64,000 bases of DNA from Betaproteobacteria bacterium (GTDB lineage: Bacteria > Pseudomonadota > Gammaproteobacteria > Burkholderiales > SG8-39). The stretch spans positions 62,001 through 126,000 of the forward strand of contig JACPYS010000026.1 in the NCBI GenBank assembly GCA_016195915.1, given 5' to 3'. The translations under genes were made by a program, and so were the position numbers. The notes under the pieces are model-generated. The model was not told the origin of the DNA. It worked only from the letters and a program-made list of their open reading frames with translations, and made no database searches. Below are positions 9,042 through 64,000 of the stretch, piece by piece. The first letter of the stretch is position 1; each line of letters begins with the position of its first letter.

Positions 9042-9998
9042 TTAGTAGGTGCTCTTGGTGAGATTGAGAGTCTTCAGTAGTGGCACCCAGCGCTCGTACT
9101 CCTGTTTGATGTAGCGCGCAAGGTCATCCGGCGAGCCGCCACGCGGCTCCATTCCCATGGTGCGGGCGCGAGCGATGAAGTCCTCGCGGACAATTACCTG
9201 ATTAACCGCACGGTTCAGTCGGTCGATGGCGGCGGCAGGTGTGCCGGCGGGCGCCACCAGTGTGTACCAGGCATAAGCTTCAACGTCGTAGCCGGACTCC
9301 TTGAAGGTGGGCGCGTTCGGCACCTGCGGCAAACGCTTGCCGTCCATCACGCCGATTACCCGCAGCTTCCCGCTCTGCACATGCGGCAGCGAGGCGGTGA
9401 TCGATGTTCCGTGGATGTCGATCACTCCGCCGAGCAGCGCTTGCAGAGCCGGTGCGTCGCCGTTGAATGGCACGTGAGTCGTCCGGATTCCCGCGATCCT
9501 CTCGAACATCAGCGGCGCCAGGTTGCTGATGATGCCGGCACCGGGCGAGCCCCGGTTGATCTTGTCCGGATTGGCTTTGGCATAGGCAACCATCTCCTGC
9601 AGCGTGTTGAACGGCAGGCTGGTTCGTCCGACGATGATCATCGGCTGATAGCCGATATGCGTGACGGGAGCGAAATCCTTCAGGGGATGGTACGGCAGCT
9701 TGTCAAACAGCACGGTGTTGTTCGCAAGCGTGCTGTTGGTGCCGACGAACACCGTCAGGCCATCGGGCCGGGAGCGCGCCACGTACTCGGCCGCGATGTT
9801 GCCGGACGCACCGGGCCTGTTCTCGACGATGACCTGAAGGCCGCCCTTGCTGACCTCCGACGCGATGAGCCGTACGTACAGATCCGTTCCGCCTCCCGCC
9901 GCGAAAGGCACGACGATGCGCGTGACCGGCTGTGCGGCAGCCGATCCGCACGCCGCCGCCGCCGCGGCAAGCAGCAATCGCACGATGAGCGTTTTCAT
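9042..9998 (-). CDS. Bug/TctC family substrate-binding protein
   Basis: MKTLIVRLLLAAAAAACGSAAAQPVTRIVVPFAAGGGTDLYVRLIASE...VVENRPGAS-type sequence. Confidence 0.93.
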   Translation of the reverse strand: MKTLIVRLLLAAAAAACGSAAAQPVTRIVVPFAAGGGTDLYVRLIASEVSKGGLQVIVENRPGASGNIAAEYVARSRPDGLTVFVGTNSTLANNTVLFDKLPYHPLKDFAPVTHIGYQPMIIVGRTSLPFNTLQEMVAYAKANPDKINRGSPGAGIISNLAPLMFERIAGIRTTHVPFNGDAPALQALLGGVIDIHGTSITASLPHVQSGKLRVIGVMDGKRLPQVPNAPTFKESGYDVEAYAWYTLVAPAGTPAAAIDRLNRAVNQVIVREDFIARARTMGMEPRGGSPDDLARYIKQEYERWVPLLKTLNLTKSTY

Positions 9999-33521: not shown

Positions 33522-33597
33522 CGCTTCGGAACGCGGCAGAAACGCTATACTGGGAAATTGCTTTTCCGTCGCCGTGACGGCCATCCCGCGAGAGCGC

Positions 33598-33999
33598 ATG
33601 AGCACAGATACGCTGCAACCCACCGAGATCAAACTGCACCAGAAGTCGCGCGTGCTCGAGATCTCGTTCGCCAACGGCAAGACTTTTCATCTGCCTTGCG
33701 AGTTCTTGCGCGTGTATTCGCCGTCGGCCGAAGTGCGGGGCCACGGCCCGGGCCAGGAAGTGCTGCAGACGGGAAAGAAGAACGTCGAGATCACCGGGAT
33801 CGAGCCGGTAGGCAGCTATGCGCTGCAGCCCACTTTCTCCGACGGCCACGATACCGGCATCTATTCGTGGGACCTGCTCTACGACTACGGCCTGCATCAG
33901 GAGGAGATGTGGCAGCGCTATCTCAAGCGCTTGGGGGAGGCCGGTGCGAGCCGTGAGGCAGTCTCGGCGCCTTTCGAGCAGCGGCCGAAATCGAAGTAG
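33598..33999 (+). CDS. DUF971 (gamma-butyrobetaine hydroxylase-like N-terminal) protein
   Basis: PTEIKLHQKSRVLEISFANGKTFHLPCEFLRVYSPSAEVRGHG...DTGIYSWDLLYDYG. Confidence 0.92.
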   Translation: MSTDTLQPTEIKLHQKSRVLEISFANGKTFHLPCEFLRVYSPSAEVRGHGPGQEVLQTGKKNVEITGIEPVGSYALQPTFSDGHDTGIYSWDLLYDYGLHQEEMWQRYLKRLGEAGASREAVSAPFEQRPKSK

Positions 34000-47452: not shown

Positions 47453-49741
47453 CTAGAACCGATACGCGAGTTCGCCGAAGACGGTGCGCCCGGGCTGCTT
47501 GTTGAAAACGAAGTACTGCCTGTTGCTCAGGTTGTCGACCGCCAGGCTCAGACTGAGATGCCGGTCGTAGCGATAGCCGAGCTTGGCGCTGACGATGCCG
47601 TAACGATCGTAGGATCCATAGACGGCCTCGGTGGTGTTGAGGTTCTGGTCGTCACCCGAGCCGAACACGTGGCCGACGTGGCGGTAGACCGCGAAACCGT
47701 ACCAGGCCTGCCGATCGAGTTGCACTCCGATGGAGAATACGCTTCGAGGCACGTCGGTGAGGAGTTTGCCGACACTCGCGGGCACCGCGTCGTTGCGGGT
47801 GATCTGGTAGCGCAGCTGGTGCGTCAGCGAGCCGAAGGCGGCGAGCCCACGCACGCCGGTCGGCCAGAGCACGCTGGCTTCGATGCCGTCGATGTCCGCC
47901 TCGCCCGAGTTCTCGGTCTGGGTCAGAGTCGCCGACAGCCGTCGCCTGTAAATAAGATCCGTGAGCCGCTGGGTATAGTAAGTCAGTGAAACGCGCGCGC
48001 CACCCGCCGGCGACGCATCCGCGCCGATTTCGAACGAGCGCACGCGTTCCGGCTTGAGCGCCGGTGCAGGTTCGTTTACCAAGTTGACACCCGCAGTCGC
48101 GGTCGGCAAGACGGTGCGCGAATACAGTTCGAGCAACGCCGGCGGACGAAAGCCTTCGCCATAGGATGTGCGCAGCGACAACCCTTGCCGGGCTTCCCAG
48201 ACCAGCGCCAGCTTCGGGCTGAACTGGTCGTAGGAACGGGTGGCATAGGCCTGAGCAAATGCGGGAGCGGTGTTCTGGCTAATCTCGCCGTCGGTGTCGA
48301 AGCGGTCGTAACGCCCGCCGAGATAACCCGTCAAGCCATGGTCGAAGTAGTGCATGCTTTGAAAAAACAATGCCGTATTGCTCGAGCGTCCGCGTCCTGC
48401 ATTGAGCAGATTGCCCAGCGTGTCGGCGTCGCGCCAGTAGCCGAGCGCCACATTGCGCCGGTCGAGTGTGCTGCGGTTGTACGCGCCGCCGGTCACCAGC
48501 ACCCAGTTGGCCGCCATCGGCGTGCGCACCGATACATCGAAGTCTGTGCGGACGTTCGGCTGGTCGGTGAAATCACCCGGGCCGTTCTCGTAAGCCGCGA
48601 GGCCGCTCGTCGCCTGCGAGAATTGAAAACTGTGGCGCAGCGTGGCGAGACTCGCGCGCACCACGCTGCCACCGTCCAAGCGGTGCTCCACAGTTGCAAA
48701 GGCCCGCAGGTCGCGCTCGAATGAAGGGGTTGCCGTCAGGAAATCGGTCTCGGCCAGGGACAGCCGACGCGTCACGCCATCTGCGAAGCTCACGATGCCA
48801 GAGGACACAGGCGCGCCGGAAGGATCGCGCAGAAAACTCTCGGGGCGCACATAGCCGACGGCGTATTGCGCCAACGCCAATCCTGCACTCAGCAGGGTCG
48901 AGGGCGCCGGACTGTAATGCAGCGAGAGCTGCGCGTTGCTCTGGATCCAGGGGCGCGCACCCTTCAGCCCGACCCAGTAGGCGGGCGTCCCGTCGGGCAT
49001 CGTGGTCGCACGGGCGCCGGAAACCGCGGTCCCGCCTGCGCCCGATACCGGTTGCTTGATCACATAGTCGCTGTCCGGATAGCCGTCGCTGTCGTGGTAG
49101 CCCGCCGAAAGCGTGACACCGAGGCCGCTGTCGTAGCGCTTACGATAATCGAGGCCGGCGCTGCGCTGGCCGAGGCTGCCTGCGCCGGCCCGCAATTCGG
49201 TCACAGGTGCGTCGGGGCTCGCCGAGATGAAGTTGACCACGCCGCCCATTGAATTGCCGCCGTAGAGCGCGGAGTACGGGCCGCGCACCACCTCGACGCG
49301 CTCGATCGAGTGGATCGGGATCGCTGCGACGTTGACACCGCCGGAGAGCGCGTTGTTCAGCGGGTGGCCGTCGATCATCACCAGCGTGCGCGGCGTGCGC
49401 GGTATGCCGCGCAACGAGAGCACGGATGTTCCCGACCCGGGAAAGCTTGCGCCCATGGCGGGACCGCGCACATAGAGTCCAGGCACGTCGGCGAGTACGT
49501 CGCCCAGCCTCAGCGCGTTACGCAGGCGGATACCGGTCTCGCCGACGACGGAAACGCTCGCCGGCACGGCCATCGCGGTGGTCGGTGCGCGCGTGGCGGT
49601 GACTACGATCGCGTCGGGTGGATCCGGGTCCATCGCAGCGGTTTGCGCATGTGCGGCGCCCGAGATGGTCATCCCGAACGCCATTACCGGCGACAGCATT
49701 GTTGCGCCCAGGCGCAATCCATTTCTTCCCTGCAACTCCAA
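47453..49741 (-). CDS. TonB-dependent receptor
   Basis: PDAIVVTATRAPTTAMAVPASVSVVGE...SVLSLRGIPRTPRTLVMIDGHPLNNALSGG...RVEVVRGPYSALYGGNSMGGVVNFIS and C-terminal FGELAYRF; TTG start uncertain. Confidence 0.93.
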   Translation of the reverse strand: MELQGRNGLRLGATMLSPVMAFGMTISGAAHAQTAAMDPDPPDAIVVTATRAPTTAMAVPASVSVVGETGIRLRNALRLGDVLADVPGLYVRGPAMGASFPGSGTSVLSLRGIPRTPRTLVMIDGHPLNNALSGGVNVAAIPIHSIERVEVVRGPYSALYGGNSMGGVVNFISASPDAPVTELRAGAGSLGQRSAGLDYRKRYDSGLGVTLSAGYHDSDGYPDSDYVIKQPVSGAGGTAVSGARATTMPDGTPAYWVGLKGARPWIQSNAQLSLHYSPAPSTLLSAGLALAQYAVGYVRPESFLRDPSGAPVSSGIVSFADGVTRRLSLAETDFLTATPSFERDLRAFATVEHRLDGGSVVRASLATLRHSFQFSQATSGLAAYENGPGDFTDQPNVRTDFDVSVRTPMAANWVLVTGGAYNRSTLDRRNVALGYWRDADTLGNLLNAGRGRSSNTALFFQSMHYFDHGLTGYLGGRYDRFDTDGEISQNTAPAFAQAYATRSYDQFSPKLALVWEARQGLSLRTSYGEGFRPPALLELYSRTVLPTATAGVNLVNEPAPALKPERVRSFEIGADASPAGGARVSLTYYTQRLTDLIYRRRLSATLTQTENSGEADIDGIEASVLWPTGVRGLAAFGSLTHQLRYQITRNDAVPASVGKLLTDVPRSVFSIGVQLDRQAWYGFAVYRHVGHVFGSGDDQNLNTTEAVYGSYDRYGIVSAKLGYRYDRHLSLSLAVDNLSNRQYFVFNKQPGRTVFGELAYRF

Positions 49742-49897: not shown

Positions 49898-51337
49898 GTG
49901 GCGGCACTGCCTCAAGAGCATGCAAGGACTCTCCCCTTCAAGGTCGTCCTCATCAATCCCTACGAACTGGGGCGCCAGCCGTTTGCATTGGCCGCGCCCG
50001 CCGCGCTGCTAAAGCGGGAGGGCCATGCCGTGAGCTGTATCGATCTTTCACTGCAGACGCTCGACCCGGCCGTGCTGGAGGGCGCGGACGTGGTGGGCAT
50101 CTATGTGGGCATGCACACCGCGACTCGCATCGCGCTGGAGGCGTTGCCGAGGATCAAGGCGCTCGCGCCCAATGCGCATATCTGCGTCTACGGGCTGTAT
50201 GCACCCATGAATGAGGCACTGCTGCGCAGGCTGGGCGTGGGCACCGTGCTTGGTGGGGAAATTGAACCCGCACTGCTCGCCCTGTGTGCGCGGCTGCGGG
50301 AAGGCAGGCCCGCGTGCGCGGGGCAGACAAACCAGATCGAGCCGGTCGTCAGCCTGGGCAAGGTCGAATTCGAAGTGCCCGACCGGAGCGGACTGCCGAA
50401 GCTCTCGTCCTACGCCCATCTGGTGCTGCCGGACGAAACCACGCGCATCGTGGGATTTGCGGAAGGGAGCCGGGGCTGCAAGCACTTGTGCAGGCACTGT
50501 CCCGTGGTTCCCGTGTATCAGGGGAAATTCCGCGTCGTTCCGGTAGACGTGGTGATGGAAGACATCCGACAGCAGGTGAAGGAAGGGGCCACGCATATTT
50601 CATTTGGCGATCCGGATTTCTTCAATGGACCGACGCACGGCCTCAGGCTCGCGCGCGCCCTGCACGAACCCTTTCCCGGCGTCACCTTCGACGCCACCAT
50701 CAAGGTCCAGCACATCATCGACCATGCCGAACTGCTGCCGGAACTCAAGCGCTGCGGCTGCCTGTTCATCACCTCGGCGGTGGAATCGGTGGACGACGAC
50801 ATCCTTCGCATTCTCGACAAGAACCACCAGGGCCTGGATTTCGATCGCGCCGTAGCGCTCACGCGCGACGCTGGGATCGCGCTCGCGCCGACCTTCGTGG
50901 CCTTCACGCCGTGGACCACGCTCGAGGGCTACATCGCATTGCTCCGACGGCTGATGGAACTGCAACTCGTCGGGAGCGTGCCCCCGGTGCAGCTCACGAT
51001 CCGGCTGCTGGTACCGGAAGGCTCTTACCTCCTGCAACTTCCCGGCTTCAGGGAACAGATCAAGGCTTTCGATTCAGCGGTGCTGGGCTATCCCTGGGAC
51101 CATGCCGATGCGCGGGTCGATCGCCTCCAGCAGACGATTACCGCGTGGGTCGCGCGATCGGAATCAGACGGCATTGTGCGCCGCGAGGTGTTCGCCGGTA
51201 TCTGGCGCATGGCTCACGAGGCGGTGGGGCGCGCTGCGCCGGAACTCGCGGAAAACCTTGGCGCCCCTATCCCCCGCTTGTCGGAGCCCTGGTACTGCTG
51301 CGCCGAGCCCACCGAGCAGCAGCTCCGGTCGTTCTGA
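49898..51337 (+). CDS. B12-binding-domain radical SAM protein with C-terminal CCAEP tail
   Basis: N-terminal B12-binding-like domain (FKVVLINPYELGRQPFALAAPAALLKREGHAVSCIDLSL); radical SAM CxxxCxxC in EGSRGCKHLCRHCPVVPVY; C-terminus EPWYCCAEPTEQQLRSF; GTG start with AAGGAGG. Confidence 0.88.
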   Translation: MAALPQEHARTLPFKVVLINPYELGRQPFALAAPAALLKREGHAVSCIDLSLQTLDPAVLEGADVVGIYVGMHTATRIALEALPRIKALAPNAHICVYGLYAPMNEALLRRLGVGTVLGGEIEPALLALCARLREGRPACAGQTNQIEPVVSLGKVEFEVPDRSGLPKLSSYAHLVLPDETTRIVGFAEGSRGCKHLCRHCPVVPVYQGKFRVVPVDVVMEDIRQQVKEGATHISFGDPDFFNGPTHGLRLARALHEPFPGVTFDATIKVQHIIDHAELLPELKRCGCLFITSAVESVDDDILRILDKNHQGLDFDRAVALTRDAGIALAPTFVAFTPWTTLEGYIALLRRLMELQLVGSVPPVQLTIRLLVPEGSYLLQLPGFREQIKAFDSAVLGYPWDHADARVDRLQQTITAWVARSESDGIVRREVFAGIWRMAHEAVGRAAPELAENLGAPIPRLSEPWYCCAEPTEQQLRSF

Positions 51338-51339
51338 AG

Positions 51340-52482
51340 ATGAAGCACAGCAGCGAGCGCATTGTGGTGACCCACGCCGGCAGTCTGCCGCGGCCGCGCG
51401 AGGTGGTCGATTGCCTCATCAGCAAGGAACGCGGCATGGGCACCGGTGCGGACTTCGACGCTGCGATGCGCCGAGGTGTGGCCGACATCGTCCGGCGCCA
51501 GGCCGAAATCGGCATCGACGTCGCGAGCGACGGCGAGACCAGCAAGATCAGTTATTCCACCTACATCAAGGACCGATACCACGGCTTCGGTGGCGAACAT
51601 GTACCGCGCACGCATCTCGACCTGCGCGAGCACCCGGAATTCCGTGCGCGCATGAAGGCCTTTCTCGGGCCGCGGCATGAGAGGCGCATGCAGTGCGTGG
51701 CGCCGGTGGCATTGCGCGACCGGCGTCCCCTCGAACAGGATCTTGCCAATTTCCGCGCCGCACTGGATGCGGTTCGGGTGACCGAGGGCTTTCTGAACGC
51801 CGCGTCCCCGGGCGTGGTCGCGGTGTTCATGCCCAATGCCTGTTACCCGAGCCACGAAGCGTATATCGAGGCCCTGGCCGAGGCGCTGCGCATCGAATAC
51901 GAAGCCATCGTCGCCGCGGGCTTCGTGCTGCAGGTGGACTGCCCGGACCTGGCGATGGGGCGCCATACCGCCTTCCAGGACTTGAGCGAGGACGAGTTCG
52001 TGTCGCGCGCGGCGCTGCACGCCGAGGCGCTCAACCACGCGCTGGCCCGGGTGCCGCAGGACCGCGTGCGCATCCATCTGTGCTGGGGAAATTATGAAGG
52101 GCCGCACGATTACGACATCGCGCTCGAGCGCATCCTGCCCGCGGTGCTGAGCATCCGCGCTCGGGCGATATCCTTCGAAGGCGCCAATCCGCGCCACGAG
52201 CACGAGTGGGTCGTATGGCGAGACGCTCGCCTGCCCGATGACCTGCTGCTGATCCCGGGGGTGCTGGACTCGTGTACCAATTACGTTGAACACCCGGAAC
52301 TGGTGGCGCAGCGCATCGAGCGCTACGCCCGTATCGTGGGACGCGAGCGCGTGCTCGCCGGCACCGACTGCGGCTTTGGCACCTTCGCCGGCTACGGCAA
52401 AGTGGACGGCAGCATCGCGTTCAAGAAACTGCGTGCTCTTGCCGAGGGCGCCGCGCTCGCCACGGCGCGGCTTTGGAAATAG
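51340..52482 (+). CDS. cobalamin-independent methionine synthase II (MetE C-terminal)-like protein
   Basis: IVVTHAGSLPRPREVV...; Zn-ligand-like motifs IHLCWGN (HxC), SFEGANPRHEHEW, GTDCGFGTF. Confidence 0.9.
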   Translation: MKHSSERIVVTHAGSLPRPREVVDCLISKERGMGTGADFDAAMRRGVADIVRRQAEIGIDVASDGETSKISYSTYIKDRYHGFGGEHVPRTHLDLREHPEFRARMKAFLGPRHERRMQCVAPVALRDRRPLEQDLANFRAALDAVRVTEGFLNAASPGVVAVFMPNACYPSHEAYIEALAEALRIEYEAIVAAGFVLQVDCPDLAMGRHTAFQDLSEDEFVSRAALHAEALNHALARVPQDRVRIHLCWGNYEGPHDYDIALERILPAVLSIRARAISFEGANPRHEHEWVVWRDARLPDDLLLIPGVLDSCTNYVEHPELVAQRIERYARIVGRERVLAGTDCGFGTFAGYGKVDGSIAFKKLRALAEGAALATARLWK

Positions 52483-52496
52483 CCGGAGGAGATACC

Positions 52497-53468
52497 ATGG
52501 ATACCATGCTCGCGAAGCTCGCTGTTCTGTTCATGGCACTCACTGCCGCTTCGGCGGCAGCTGCGCAGGGATTTCCCGCGGGTCCCGTGCGTATGGTCAT
52601 CGGCTACCCTCCGGGCGGCTCGGCCGACTTCGTCGCGAGAGTGCTCGCCGACGAGATGACCCGCGGCCTCGGCTCGCCAGTGGTGGTGGAGAACCGGCCC
52701 GGTGCCGGCACTGCGATCGCGTCGGACGCGGTGGCCAAGGCGAGGCCCGACGGCCAGACGCTCCTGCTCAACTGGCACCAGGCGATCGTTCGCGCGCTGA
52801 TCAAGGAAAAGCTGGCTTACGATCCGGACAGTGCTTTCGTGCCGGTGTCGCGCGTGGCCACGGGCACCACTGTGCTGGTGGTGCACAGCTCGGTCCCGGC
52901 AGATTCGCTGCGCGAGCTGGTCGCACTTGCGAAGGCGAACCCGGGCAGGTACAACGCCGCCTCTGGCGGACACGGTTCCGCTCCGCACCTTGCGCTCGCA
53001 CAGTTCGAGGCTGCGGCCGGCGTGAGGTTCACCACCATTCAGTACAAGGGCGGCGGACCGGCGACGCAGTCGATCCTCGCCGGCGACACGCAGCTGTTGT
53101 TCGCTACCTCACCCTCCGTAATGGGGTTCATCAAGTCCGGGAAGCTCAAACCCCTGGTCGTGGCCATGCGCAAGGGCTCGCCGGCGATTCCGGGCATACC
53201 GGGATCCGAAGAGGCCGGCGTGCCCGCCTTCGAGTCCACGTTCTGGTTCGGAGTGTTTGCGCCCGCAGGCACGCCCGCGGCAACGGTGCGCCGCCTGCAC
53301 CAGTCGGTAACGGCCGCGCTCGCCGGTCCGGAAATGCGGGCGAAAATCGCCTCCCAAGGAATGGACGCTACGTCCTCGGCGTCTCCCGAGGTGTTCGCGG
53401 AGGAACTTTTGGCGGAGGGCCCGCGGCTCGAGTTGCTGGTGAAGAACCTGGGCGCGCGCGTCGAATAG
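52497..53468 (+). CDS. Bug/TctC family substrate-binding protein
   Basis: QGFPAGPVRMVIGYPPGGSADFVARVLADEMTRGLGSPVVVENRPGAGT. Confidence 0.93.
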   Translation: MDTMLAKLAVLFMALTAASAAAAQGFPAGPVRMVIGYPPGGSADFVARVLADEMTRGLGSPVVVENRPGAGTAIASDAVAKARPDGQTLLLNWHQAIVRALIKEKLAYDPDSAFVPVSRVATGTTVLVVHSSVPADSLRELVALAKANPGRYNAASGGHGSAPHLALAQFEAAAGVRFTTIQYKGGGPATQSILAGDTQLLFATSPSVMGFIKSGKLKPLVVAMRKGSPAIPGIPGSEEAGVPAFESTFWFGVFAPAGTPAATVRRLHQSVTAALAGPEMRAKIASQGMDATSSASPEVFAEELLAEGPRLELLVKNLGARVE

Positions 53469-55430: not shown

Positions 55431-57896
<2,466 letters not shown>

Positions 57897-57920
57897 GTGT
57901 CCCCCTCACGCGCTAGCCGG

Positions 57921-57945
57921 TTTCTGGTCAGACGAAAACCAGAAA
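57921..57945. repeat. inverted repeat TTTCTGGT-N9-ACCAGAAA in the glgP/gnd divergent intergenic region
   Basis: Perfect 8-bp arms (57921-57928 and 57938-57945). Confidence 0.7.
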
Positions 57946-58029
57946 TGAGAATCTTAATCATATACCTTGCCGCGCGATCCAGTTTCCGGAAGAATGACCC
58001 GGACATCGACCGAGAAACAGGGGGCGTCC

Positions 58030-58902
58030 ATGAAGATCGGAATGATCGGGCTGGGCCGGATGGGCGGGAACATGGCCGAGCGCCTGCGCCGGCACGGGCA
58101 TGAGGTGGTCGGCTTCGACCATGACGCGTCGGTTTCACAGGTTGCGACGCTCGCCGACCTGGCGTCGGCGCTCACGGCGCCACGCGTCGTGTGGGTGATG
58201 GTCCCGTCGGGCGATCCGACGGAGAAGACCGTTGCGGCCCTGGGCTCGCTGCTCTCGGCGGGAGACCTCGTCATCGAAGGCGGCAACTCGTTCTACCGCG
58301 ATTCGATCCGGCGTGCCGCACAACTCGGCGAACGAAGCATCGGCTTCATCGACGCGGGCACGAGCGGCGGGATCTGGGGACTTGCCGAGGGCTACTGCAT
58401 CATGGTGGGCGGCGACCCCGCCCAGGTCGCGAAAGCGCAGCCGATTTTCGACGCGCTGGTGCAGTCCGAGGGCTTCGCTCACGTCGGCCCGGCGGGCGCC
58501 GGGCACTTCACCAAGATGGTCCACAACGGCGTCGAGTACGGCATGATGCAGGCCTTCGGCGAAGGCTACGAGCTGTTGGGCGCAAGCGAACTCGGCATCG
58601 ACGTCGAGCGTGCGATCGAGGTCTGGCGTCATGGCAGCGTGGTGCGCTCATGGCTGCTCGACCTGCTCGCCAAAGCTCTGGCCGAGGACCCGAAGCTCTC
58701 GAGCATCAAGGGTTGGGCGGAAGACTCGGGCGAGGGGCGGTGGACGGTAAACGAAGCAGTGCGTTTGAGCGTGCCCGCGTACGTGCTCTCTGCCTCGCTC
58801 TATGCACGCTTCGCCTCGCGCCAGCACGACGCGCCTGCGATGAAGGTGATTGCTGCGCTACGCAACCAGTTTGGCGGGCACGCTGTAAAGAAGGACAGGT
58901 GA
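58030..58902 (+). CDS. gnd: 6-phosphogluconate dehydrogenase (decarboxylating), short form
   Basis: MKIGMIGLGRMGGNMAERLRRHGHEVVGFDHD...GNSFYRDSIRRA...GTSGGIWGLAEGYCIMVGGD...HFTKMVHNGVEYGMMQA. Confidence 0.93.
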   Translation: MKIGMIGLGRMGGNMAERLRRHGHEVVGFDHDASVSQVATLADLASALTAPRVVWVMVPSGDPTEKTVAALGSLLSAGDLVIEGGNSFYRDSIRRAAQLGERSIGFIDAGTSGGIWGLAEGYCIMVGGDPAQVAKAQPIFDALVQSEGFAHVGPAGAGHFTKMVHNGVEYGMMQAFGEGYELLGASELGIDVERAIEVWRHGSVVRSWLLDLLAKALAEDPKLSSIKGWAEDSGEGRWTVNEAVRLSVPAYVLSASLYARFASRQHDAPAMKVIAALRNQFGGHAVKKDR

Positions 58903-58942
58903 GCGCAGCGCACGGGTGTCTGCAAGCCTTGGCGGGTTGCCG

Positions 58943-60892
58943 ATGAGCGCGCCCAAGGGAGAACCCTGCATCCTGGTCGTGTTCGGCGCCGCCGGGGATT
59001 TGACACGCCGGCTGCTGATGCCGGCGCTCTACAACCTTGCCTGCGACGGCCTGCTCTCGCCGCACCTGGCGATCGTCGGCGTGGCGATGGAGGCCTTGAG
59101 CACGTCGGAGTTCCGCGAGCGGCTCGGCACCGACGTGCGCCGCTTCACGACGAGGAAGGAATTCAACGAGGAGATCTGGGCCGATTTCGTGGGCCGGCTG
59201 GACTACGTTACAGGGCGCTTCGAGGACACTGCGACCTACGGCCGTATCGCGGGGCAGGCGGAAGAGCTGGGTGAGCGCTACGGGACCGGCGGCAACGTGC
59301 TGTTCTACCTCGCGACACCTCCGGCTGCATTCGGCCTGATTGGCAGGATGCTCGCGGAGACGGGCTTGAGCACGCACCCTTCGGGCTGGAGGCGCCTGAT
59401 CGTCGAGAAACCCTTCGGGCACGACCTCGCCTCTGCGATCGAACTCAACCGCACCCTGCTTGCGCACTGGAAGGAAGAACAGATCTTCCGAATCGATCAT
59501 TACCTTGGAAAGGAGACGGTGCAGAACCTGCTTGCCTTCCGGTTTTCGAACGGGCTGTTCGAGCCGCTGTGGGGCAGGCAGCAGATCGATCACATCCAGT
59601 TCACGGTGGCCGAGTCGGTGGGCGTCGAAGGGCGCGGCCGCTACTACGACGGCGCGGGCGTGCTGCGCGACATGATCCAGAACCACATGTTCCAGATGCT
59701 CGCCTATCTTTGCATGGAGCCGCCATCGTCGTTCCGCGCGGATGCCGTCCGCAACGAGAAGGCCAAGCTGCTCGAAGCGGTGCGCATCATGGCTCCCGCC
59801 GACGTCCTGCGCGACACGGTGCGCGGCCAGTACGGCCCGGGCCGCAAGCCCGACGGCACGCCGGTACCCGGTTACCGTCAGGAACGGGACGTCTCTCCCG
59901 AATCCGCCACCGAGACATTCGCAGCGCTCAAGCTTCATATCGACAACTGGCGCTGGGAGGGTGTGCCGGTGTACCTGCGCTCGGGCAAAAGCCTGTGGAA
60001 GCGCGGGACCGAGATCCTGGTTCACTTCAAGAAGGCGCCCGAGGTGCTGTTCCGCGGGGCGCCGGGGATCGGCCGACTCGAGCACAACCAGCTCATATTC
60101 CATATCCAGCCCGACCAGGGCATCGAGTTGCGCTTCCAGGCGAAGCATCCCGGGCCGCTCCTGTCGCTGCAGAAGGTCGACATGCGATTCGACTACCAGG
60201 AAGCCTTCGAGGCTTCGCGCAGCACCGGCTACGAGGTGCTGCTCTATCACTGCATGCACGGAGATGCGACGCTGTTTACGCGCAACGACCTGGTCGAGGC
60301 GGCGTGGCGCATCGCCCAGCCCGTCCTGGACACCTGGGCCGAGAACCCCCCGCGCGACTTCCCGAACTACGAGGCGTGTACCTGGGGCCCCAAGCCCGCC
60401 TTCCACCTGATCGAGCGCGACGGCCGCAAGTGGCTCGATGTCATCAACCGCGCGGTGCTCGAGAAGGTTCCGCTGTTCTCCGGTTGCAGCGCTGTGTTCC
60501 TGCACGGGCTCGCGCTCGTGTTGAAGCCCGCGGTATTCGCGGCGGGCGATATCATCCTTGAAAAGGGTGCCACCGGCTCCAAAATGTATTTCGTCACCCG
60601 CGGAGAAGTGGAGGTCGCCGACGGCGGGCAGGTGCTCCTCACGCTGGGCGAAGGAAGCTTCTTCGGCGAAAAGAGCCTGCTGCTCTCCGAGCCGCGCTCC
60701 GCCTCCGTGCGCGCCCGGACCCAGTGCGATCTCTACGTTCTCGACAAGTCGGACCTCATGAAGGTCCTGCGCGACCACCCGAACTTCGCGCGCTCCATCC
60801 TCGACGCTTATTGCCGGCGCTACAACCTCGTCGTCGATGCGAAGCAGGCGTTCGACACTCTGCTCGCCAATTACCTCGACCGCGAGGCGTAG
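58943..60892 (+). CDS. zwf: glucose-6-phosphate dehydrogenase fused to a C-terminal cyclic-nucleotide-binding domain
   Basis: G6PDH: CILVVFGAAGDLTRRLLMPALYNL...FRIDHYLGKETVQNLLAFRFSN; CNB: PAVFAAGDIILEKGATGSKMYFVTRGEVEV...GEGSFFGEKSLLLSEPRSASVRA, one continuous reading frame. Confidence 0.94.
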   Translation: MSAPKGEPCILVVFGAAGDLTRRLLMPALYNLACDGLLSPHLAIVGVAMEALSTSEFRERLGTDVRRFTTRKEFNEEIWADFVGRLDYVTGRFEDTATYGRIAGQAEELGERYGTGGNVLFYLATPPAAFGLIGRMLAETGLSTHPSGWRRLIVEKPFGHDLASAIELNRTLLAHWKEEQIFRIDHYLGKETVQNLLAFRFSNGLFEPLWGRQQIDHIQFTVAESVGVEGRGRYYDGAGVLRDMIQNHMFQMLAYLCMEPPSSFRADAVRNEKAKLLEAVRIMAPADVLRDTVRGQYGPGRKPDGTPVPGYRQERDVSPESATETFAALKLHIDNWRWEGVPVYLRSGKSLWKRGTEILVHFKKAPEVLFRGAPGIGRLEHNQLIFHIQPDQGIELRFQAKHPGPLLSLQKVDMRFDYQEAFEASRSTGYEVLLYHCMHGDATLFTRNDLVEAAWRIAQPVLDTWAENPPRDFPNYEACTWGPKPAFHLIERDGRKWLDVINRAVLEKVPLFSGCSAVFLHGLALVLKPAVFAAGDIILEKGATGSKMYFVTRGEVEVADGGQVLLTLGEGSFFGEKSLLLSEPRSASVRARTQCDLYVLDKSDLMKVLRDHPNFARSILDAYCRRYNLVVDAKQAFDTLLANYLDREA

Positions 60893-63399: not shown

Positions 63400-63425
63400 T
63401 CCGGCCCGTGACGGACTTGGCTGCT

Positions 63426-64000
63426 TGAAAAAGGTATTTGCAATCGCAGCGTTTTTCGTGGCGGTGAGCGCATTCGCGCAGCCGGCGCCGCGCGTGATCG
63501 ACATCCCCACGCGCGCCGGGGTCACGCAGCGCTTTCTTCTGATCGCGCCGGAGAATCCCAGGGCGGTGGCGATCCTGCTGGCCGGCGGCAGTGGCTGGCT
63601 GAAGCTCGCGCCCGACGGCCGCATCGGCGGACTGGGCGGCAACTTTCTCGTGCGCAGCCGCGGCCTGTTCGTAGAGCAGGGCCTTGCGGTGGCGGTGCTC
63701 GACGCGCCTTCGGACCGGCAGACCGCCCTGGCGCTGCACTGGTTTCGCACCACTGAGGAACATGTTGCGGACCTGAAGGCGGTGATTGCGTGGCTGCGGG
63801 ATGAACTCAAGCTGCCGGTGTGGCTGATCGGCACTAGCCGGGGCACCGAGTCGGCTGCGTTTGTGGCGACGCAACTGCCGCGCGTTGCGGGCGGGCCGGA
63901 CGGCATCGTGCTGAGTTCTTCCGTCCTCAGGGACCGGCGCGGCCGGCCGGTGACCGCGATGGACATGGAGAAGGTCGCGGCCCCGGTGCTGGTGGTACAC
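63426..64000 (+). CDS. alpha/beta hydrolase-like secreted protein, partial (truncated by window end)
   Basis: Not in the supplied ORF track; TTG start then KKVFAIAAFFVAVSAFAQPAPRVIDIPTRAGVTQRFLLIAPENPRAVAILLAGGSGW...LIGTSRGTESAAFVA, open to 64000. Confidence 0.75.

Follow-up and report, generated by a model that had tools for sequence, protein, structure and literature searches.

The CCAEP-tailed radical SAM gene described here appears to have an ATP-grasp L-amino acid ligase gene as its real evolutionary partner, judging from gene order and co-occurrence among homologous loci. The ligase gene begins just beyond the edge of the window (i.e., the whole stretch of 64,000 nucleotides that was analysed), and the MetE-like and Bug genes that directly follow the radical SAM gene look like late, unrelated neighbours. 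That radical SAM and ligase genes form a real module, with the MetE-like and Bug genes as bystanders, is considered highly probable. The nearest characterised relative of the radical SAM protein is ArsL, and a two-enzyme route to an unusual dipeptide can be proposed for the module. The features of the locus are collected in Table 1.

Table 1. Features of the locus, in window coordinates.
Feature	Position	Strand	Remarks
DUF971 (PF06155) gene	33574..33999	+	Only copy in the genome; putative ancestral upstream neighbour; likelier start ATG 33598
Divergent TonB-dependent receptor gene	47453..49741	-	Plug and barrel domains; apparent bystander
CCAEP-tail radical SAM gene (NF040546)	49898..51337	+	479 aa; GTG start after a strong AAGGAGG
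CxxxCxxC motif (C194, C198, C201)	50477..50500	+	Expected holder of the [4Fe-4S] cluster; invariant in 56 homologues
C-terminal CCAEP (C467-P471)	51296..51310	+	Invariant in 56 homologues
MetE-like (PF01717) gene	51340..52482	+	380 aa; interpreted as a lineage-specific neighbour outside the pathway
Bug/TctC solute-binding protein gene	52497..53468	+	323 aa; PF03401, 203 bits; probably a bystander
Hydrolase-like gene (start)	63425..64000	+	Immediately precedes the L-amino acid ligase gene
L-amino acid ligase gene	Window-equivalent 64233-65492 (G000:C42:126233-127492)	+	Begins 233 bases beyond the window

A radical SAM family akin to ArsL

The radical SAM protein scored 605.1 bits against the NCBIfam model NF040546 (CUAEP/CCAEP-tail radical SAM (seleno)protein), for which the curated cut-off is 500, and it is a true member of this catalogued, uncharacterised family. 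The original prediction had guessed at the same family and had proposed an HMM search; the CxxxCxxC motif and the CCAEP tail that it described were likewise borne out, both being conserved throughout the homologues. Specifically, the tail, EPWYCCAEPTEQQLRSF, begins at E463, and E463, W465-T472 (W-Y-C-C-A-E-P-T) and Q475 are identical in all 56 of the aligned homologues. Every one of these proteins carries the CCAEP tail, found here within EPWYCCAEP, and its conservation would seem to be no accident. Relative to NF040546, the window protein shares the invariant EPWYCCAEPT tail but possesses Cys-Cys rather than Cys-Sec, and its gene has moved away from the usual DUF971 and ligase neighbours.

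The Cys-Sec alternative is seen in Thermomicrobium roseum, where the homologue has a TGA codon at the second Cys position (ESWFC-TGA-AEP), apparently encoding selenocysteine; as far as can be read from sequence, the selenocysteine form in the family's name is real. The annotation of NC_011961.1 (locus 9378-9390) reads this TGA as a stop, leaving the deposited protein without the CUAEP tail, and the T. roseum selenoprotein is probably mis-annotated. In a phylum-wide draw, the family occurred in one of 399 genomes, namely the window's own. No relatives were found in a search of viral contigs, and a literature search for CUAEP and CCAEP returned no paper naming the family.

Among the remaining family models, the second-best match to the window protein was ArsL (NF040542) at 262 bits, with all others at or below 38. 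The same pattern holds in both directions. The Thermomicrobium member scored 765 bits with the CCAEP model, 315 with the ArsL model and 58 with the next, and a Priestia plasmid ArsL scored 696 bits with its own model, 361 with the CCAEP model and 74 with the next. Proteins of the two families are only about 29-34% identical over ~400 residues, but their homology spans the whole length, and both carry the RGCxHxCxxC cluster motif, the PWT motif and a Cys-Cys pair in the C-terminal tail. In a tree, the CCAEP and ArsL proteins formed two separate groups, each fully supported. The window protein differs from ArsL (PMC8552651) in falling well below the ArsL cut-off of 450 bits, in ending in CCAEPTEQQLRSF where ArsL proteins terminate in RCCLKC, in having ~50 extra residues, and in lying outside any ars operon. 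Taken as a whole, the CCAEP enzymes are best regarded as a sister family of ArsL.

The original prediction had also assigned the protein an N-terminal B12-binding-like domain and, with it, B12-radical chemistry. The AlphaFold model (pLDDT 92, pTM 0.90) does contain such a domain, and its best match in the PDB was the radical SAM diol-dehydratase AprD4 (6fd2; TM about 0.70), followed by OxsB and TsrM. The likeness to AprD4 extends to the B12-like N-terminal fold but not to the reaction; identity is ~20%, and the window protein scored just 36 bits against the AprD4 family model. The Pfam B12-binding model gave 23.1 bits, under its cut-off of 32.1. The predicted fold is B12-like, yet with ArsL and AprD4 as the nearest relatives, a weak Pfam match and an ArsL paper (PMC8552651) that makes no mention of cobalamin, there appears to be no good reason to expect B12 in this enzyme, and B12-radical chemistry is not supported.

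The ligase gene as partner and an opened gene order

In 58 of 80 homologous loci, an ATP-grasp L-amino acid ligase gene lies within three genes of the radical SAM gene, and in 46 it is immediately downstream, usually with a gap of 16 nt or less; no ligase was found nearby in 16 loci having ample flank. In a set of 100 genomes of the family, the ligase occurred in 27 of the 30 with the radical SAM gene (the exceptions being G024, G054 and G085) versus two of the 70 without it (p = 8e-19, a value that, like the other co-occurrence p-value given below, treats genomes as independent and ignores shared ancestry, although the same association is seen in many taxonomic families). A wider class sample, in which the ArsL model at 1e-60 served as a stand-in for the CCAEP family (all 12 fetched loci were CCAEP-tailed), placed the ligase in 14 of 16 genomes with the radical SAM gene versus 37 of 275 without, often unlinked. 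In two genomes, a gene of ~220 aa sits between the radical SAM and ligase genes (L123:6646-7308 and L121), and the one tested is a DUF169 (PF02596) gene.

The ligase possesses ATP-grasp and LAL_C2 domains, both above their cut-offs (96.0 and 60.9 bits), and its best PDB match was BL00235 (3vot; 1.4e-36), a Met-Gly/Met-Met ligase (PMC6920838). In this genome, the partner lies outside the window. Its presence in 37 genomes of the wider sample that have no radical SAM gene indicates that the ligase has some other use too. Gammaproteobacterial ligase genes located away from the radical SAM gene (L164-L191) follow an IscA/ErpA-type Fe-S carrier gene in 23 of 27 loci and have YggX adjoining in 18 of the 27; in seven loci, the ligase gene has an AmmeMemoRadiSam-type radical SAM gene as its neighbour. 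Other radical enzymes may, therefore, use the same ligase.

In the window's own genome, 12.9 kb separate the radical SAM gene from the ligase gene downstream, and 15.9 kb separate it from the DUF971 gene upstream (placed at C42:95628-95882, window 33628-33882). All three are on one strand, at 33.6, 49.9 and 64.2 kb, and are spread over ~32 kb. Among the loci examined, 43 have a DUF971 gene immediately before the radical SAM gene. The genus has one other genome, in which the DUF971 and radical SAM genes are still adjacent, with the ligase gene 2.6 kb off behind two genes on the opposite strand. In the tree, the window's radical SAM protein falls in a region where most members are linked to the ligase. 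Comparison thus shows that the old order of DUF971, radical SAM and ligase genes has been kept here but opened by large insertions. The simplest reading is that an old operon took up additional genes, with the MetE-like and Bug genes in one insert. Between the radical SAM and ligase genes, window 55431-60892 reads as a glycogen phosphorylase gene, a 6-phosphogluconate dehydrogenase-like gene and a glucose-6-phosphate dehydrogenase gene with an apparent C-terminal cyclic-nucleotide-binding domain. DUF971 and YggX were also considered as functional partners and set aside; both are frequent, but DUF971 is missing from many loci, and the two may reflect shared chromosomal position.

A proposed route to an unusual dipeptide

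ArsL transfers the 3-amino-3-carboxypropyl group of SAM to arsenite. Expressed alone in E. coli, it yields hydroxyarsinothricin from arsenite (PMC8552651); noncanonical SAM cleavage by the enzyme has been reported in a later JACS study, as cited in PMC12159101. From kinship with ArsL, we infer that a CCAEP enzyme would cleave SAM on its methionine side, without need of cobalamin, and pass its 3-amino-3-carboxypropyl group on to a soft acceptor, which could be a thiol or a species of a metalloid or chalcogen. This acceptor might be bound or handed over by the Cys-Cys or Cys-Sec pair of the tail. The product would be a methionine- or glutamate-like amino acid, X-CH2-CH2-CH(NH2)-COOH, which the ligase, by analogy with BL00235 as its nearest solved relative, would join to another amino acid, generating a dipeptide. 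A module of two enzymes, one of ArsL type and cobalamin-free that produces an unusual amino acid and a ligase that builds it into a dipeptide, is the most likely function, with chances judged to be about even. The same balance applies to ArsL-type group transfer by the CCAEP enzyme, and dipeptide formation by the ligase is somewhat favoured; arsenic would be an unlikely acceptor.

Pairing of such a radical enzyme with a ligase-type ATP-grasp protein may be a recurring theme, since ArsL clusters also carry ATP-grasp genes and the two of these that were tested both match LAL_C2, one above its cut-off. The gene was present in all six ArsL plasmid regions read (L154, L155, L156, L196, L197 and L198), in a set of clusters from Bacillus, Priestia, Alicyclobacillus, Pantoea and Klebsiella, and this hints at arsinothricin-containing dipeptides from ArsL clusters. 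The conserved ligase resembles BL00235 more closely than it does the ATP-grasp proteins of ArsL clusters, to which its relationship is only distant. Less probably, the CCAEP/CUAEP enzyme and its ligase may constitute an undescribed two-gene route to a dipeptide containing a new 3-amino-3-carboxypropyl-metalloid or -chalcogen amino acid, an arsinothricin relative based on a different element or acceptor, in beta- and gammaproteobacteria that include sulfur and iron oxidisers.

Alternative readings of the locus

The original prediction had joined the radical SAM, MetE-like and Bug genes and the divergent TonB receptor gene into one pathway, in which a small compound is imported, modified by B12-radical chemistry and subjected to alkyl transfer by a Zn enzyme. 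The reading frames confirmed its coordinates and its gaps of 2 nt (radical SAM to MetE-like) and 14 nt (MetE-like to Bug) between genes on the same strand, and translation of the MetE-like gene may be coupled to that of its neighbour, as its start has no obvious ribosome site. The Zn-site residues that it named in the MetE-like protein (H246-x-C248, E280 and C344) are also present, align with the HxC/E/C of the solved relative 1ypx and are invariant in 19 homologues, and with this motif intact, as in cobalamin-independent methionine synthase (PF01717), the protein could transfer an alkyl group to or from a thiol. However, it falls far below every full MetE equivalog cut-off (best 76.6 bits versus 406), is one of 13 PF01717 matches in this genome, and is not linked to the radical SAM family. 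No close relative of it was found beside the radical SAM gene in any of the 80 homologous loci (in one genome, a paralogue of 25% identity precedes the DUF971 gene), and in the 100 genomes of the family it occurred in eight of 30 with the radical SAM gene versus 29 of 70 without (p = 0.18). Neighbourhood and co-occurrence together rule out the MetE-like gene as a conserved partner, and a lack of conservation of the pair is what the original prediction itself had named as refuting it. Its best relative (60%) adjoins a LigB ring-cleaving dioxygenase gene in a genome lacking the radical SAM gene, and the closest relatives in general (50-60%) lie near LigB-type dioxygenases, glyoxalase-fold dioxygenase-like proteins, alcohol dehydrogenases and transporters, surroundings that suggest a catabolic role of its own. 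The Bug neighbour is uninformative as a clue to a ligand because there are at least 150 Bug/TctC genes in this 6.84-Mb genome, and no relatives of the TonB receptor were found near the 80 radical SAM homologues. With the B12 match weak as well, a single uptake, modification and alkyl-transfer pathway is very improbable.

Two further alternatives retain the pairing with the ligase and differ in the chemistry of the radical enzyme. In one, the CCAEP enzyme is of the plain arsinothricin type, converting arsenite to hydroxyarsinothricin that the ligase then hides in a dipeptide, as in the peptide forms of phosphinothricin. The sister relationship to ArsL, the shared Cys-Cys tail and the ligase-type ATP-grasp genes of ArsL clusters are consistent with this; the gene surroundings are not. 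When 16 ars-cluster seed proteins were compared with 1103 genes near homologues, the only matches were the ATP-grasp protein and one distant ArsM, with no relatives of ArsR, efflux proteins, ArsN or arsenate reductase, and the homologues sit among chromosomal housekeeping genes. An arsenic operon setting was accordingly rejected, the seed proteins from ArsL plasmids having matched essentially nothing else there, and a plain arsinothricin-type enzyme is considered quite unlikely. Given that ars genes are not found near homologues, another acceptor, or another chemistry altogether, is possible. For example, the CCAEP enzyme might perform ordinary 5'-deoxyadenosyl radical chemistry on a small thiol or an amino acid, with the ligase acting on that product and the kinship with ArsL reflecting ancestry only. 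The differing chemistries of its structural neighbours AprD4, OxsB and TsrM, and the lack of arsenic genes nearby, would fit such an enzyme, but no other characterised family comes nearly as close as ArsL, which also has the Cys-Cys tail in common, leaving this alternative a doubtful one. Group transfer of the ArsL type to a soft acceptor is the reading favoured here.

The locus illustrates how a tight intergenic gap can mislead, in that the nearest gene was not the partner and the partner lay just outside the window. More broadly, the CCAEP family has had a curated name with no assigned function, and its links with ArsL and with an L-amino acid ligase provide a two-gene hypothesis that would be testable in E. 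coli.
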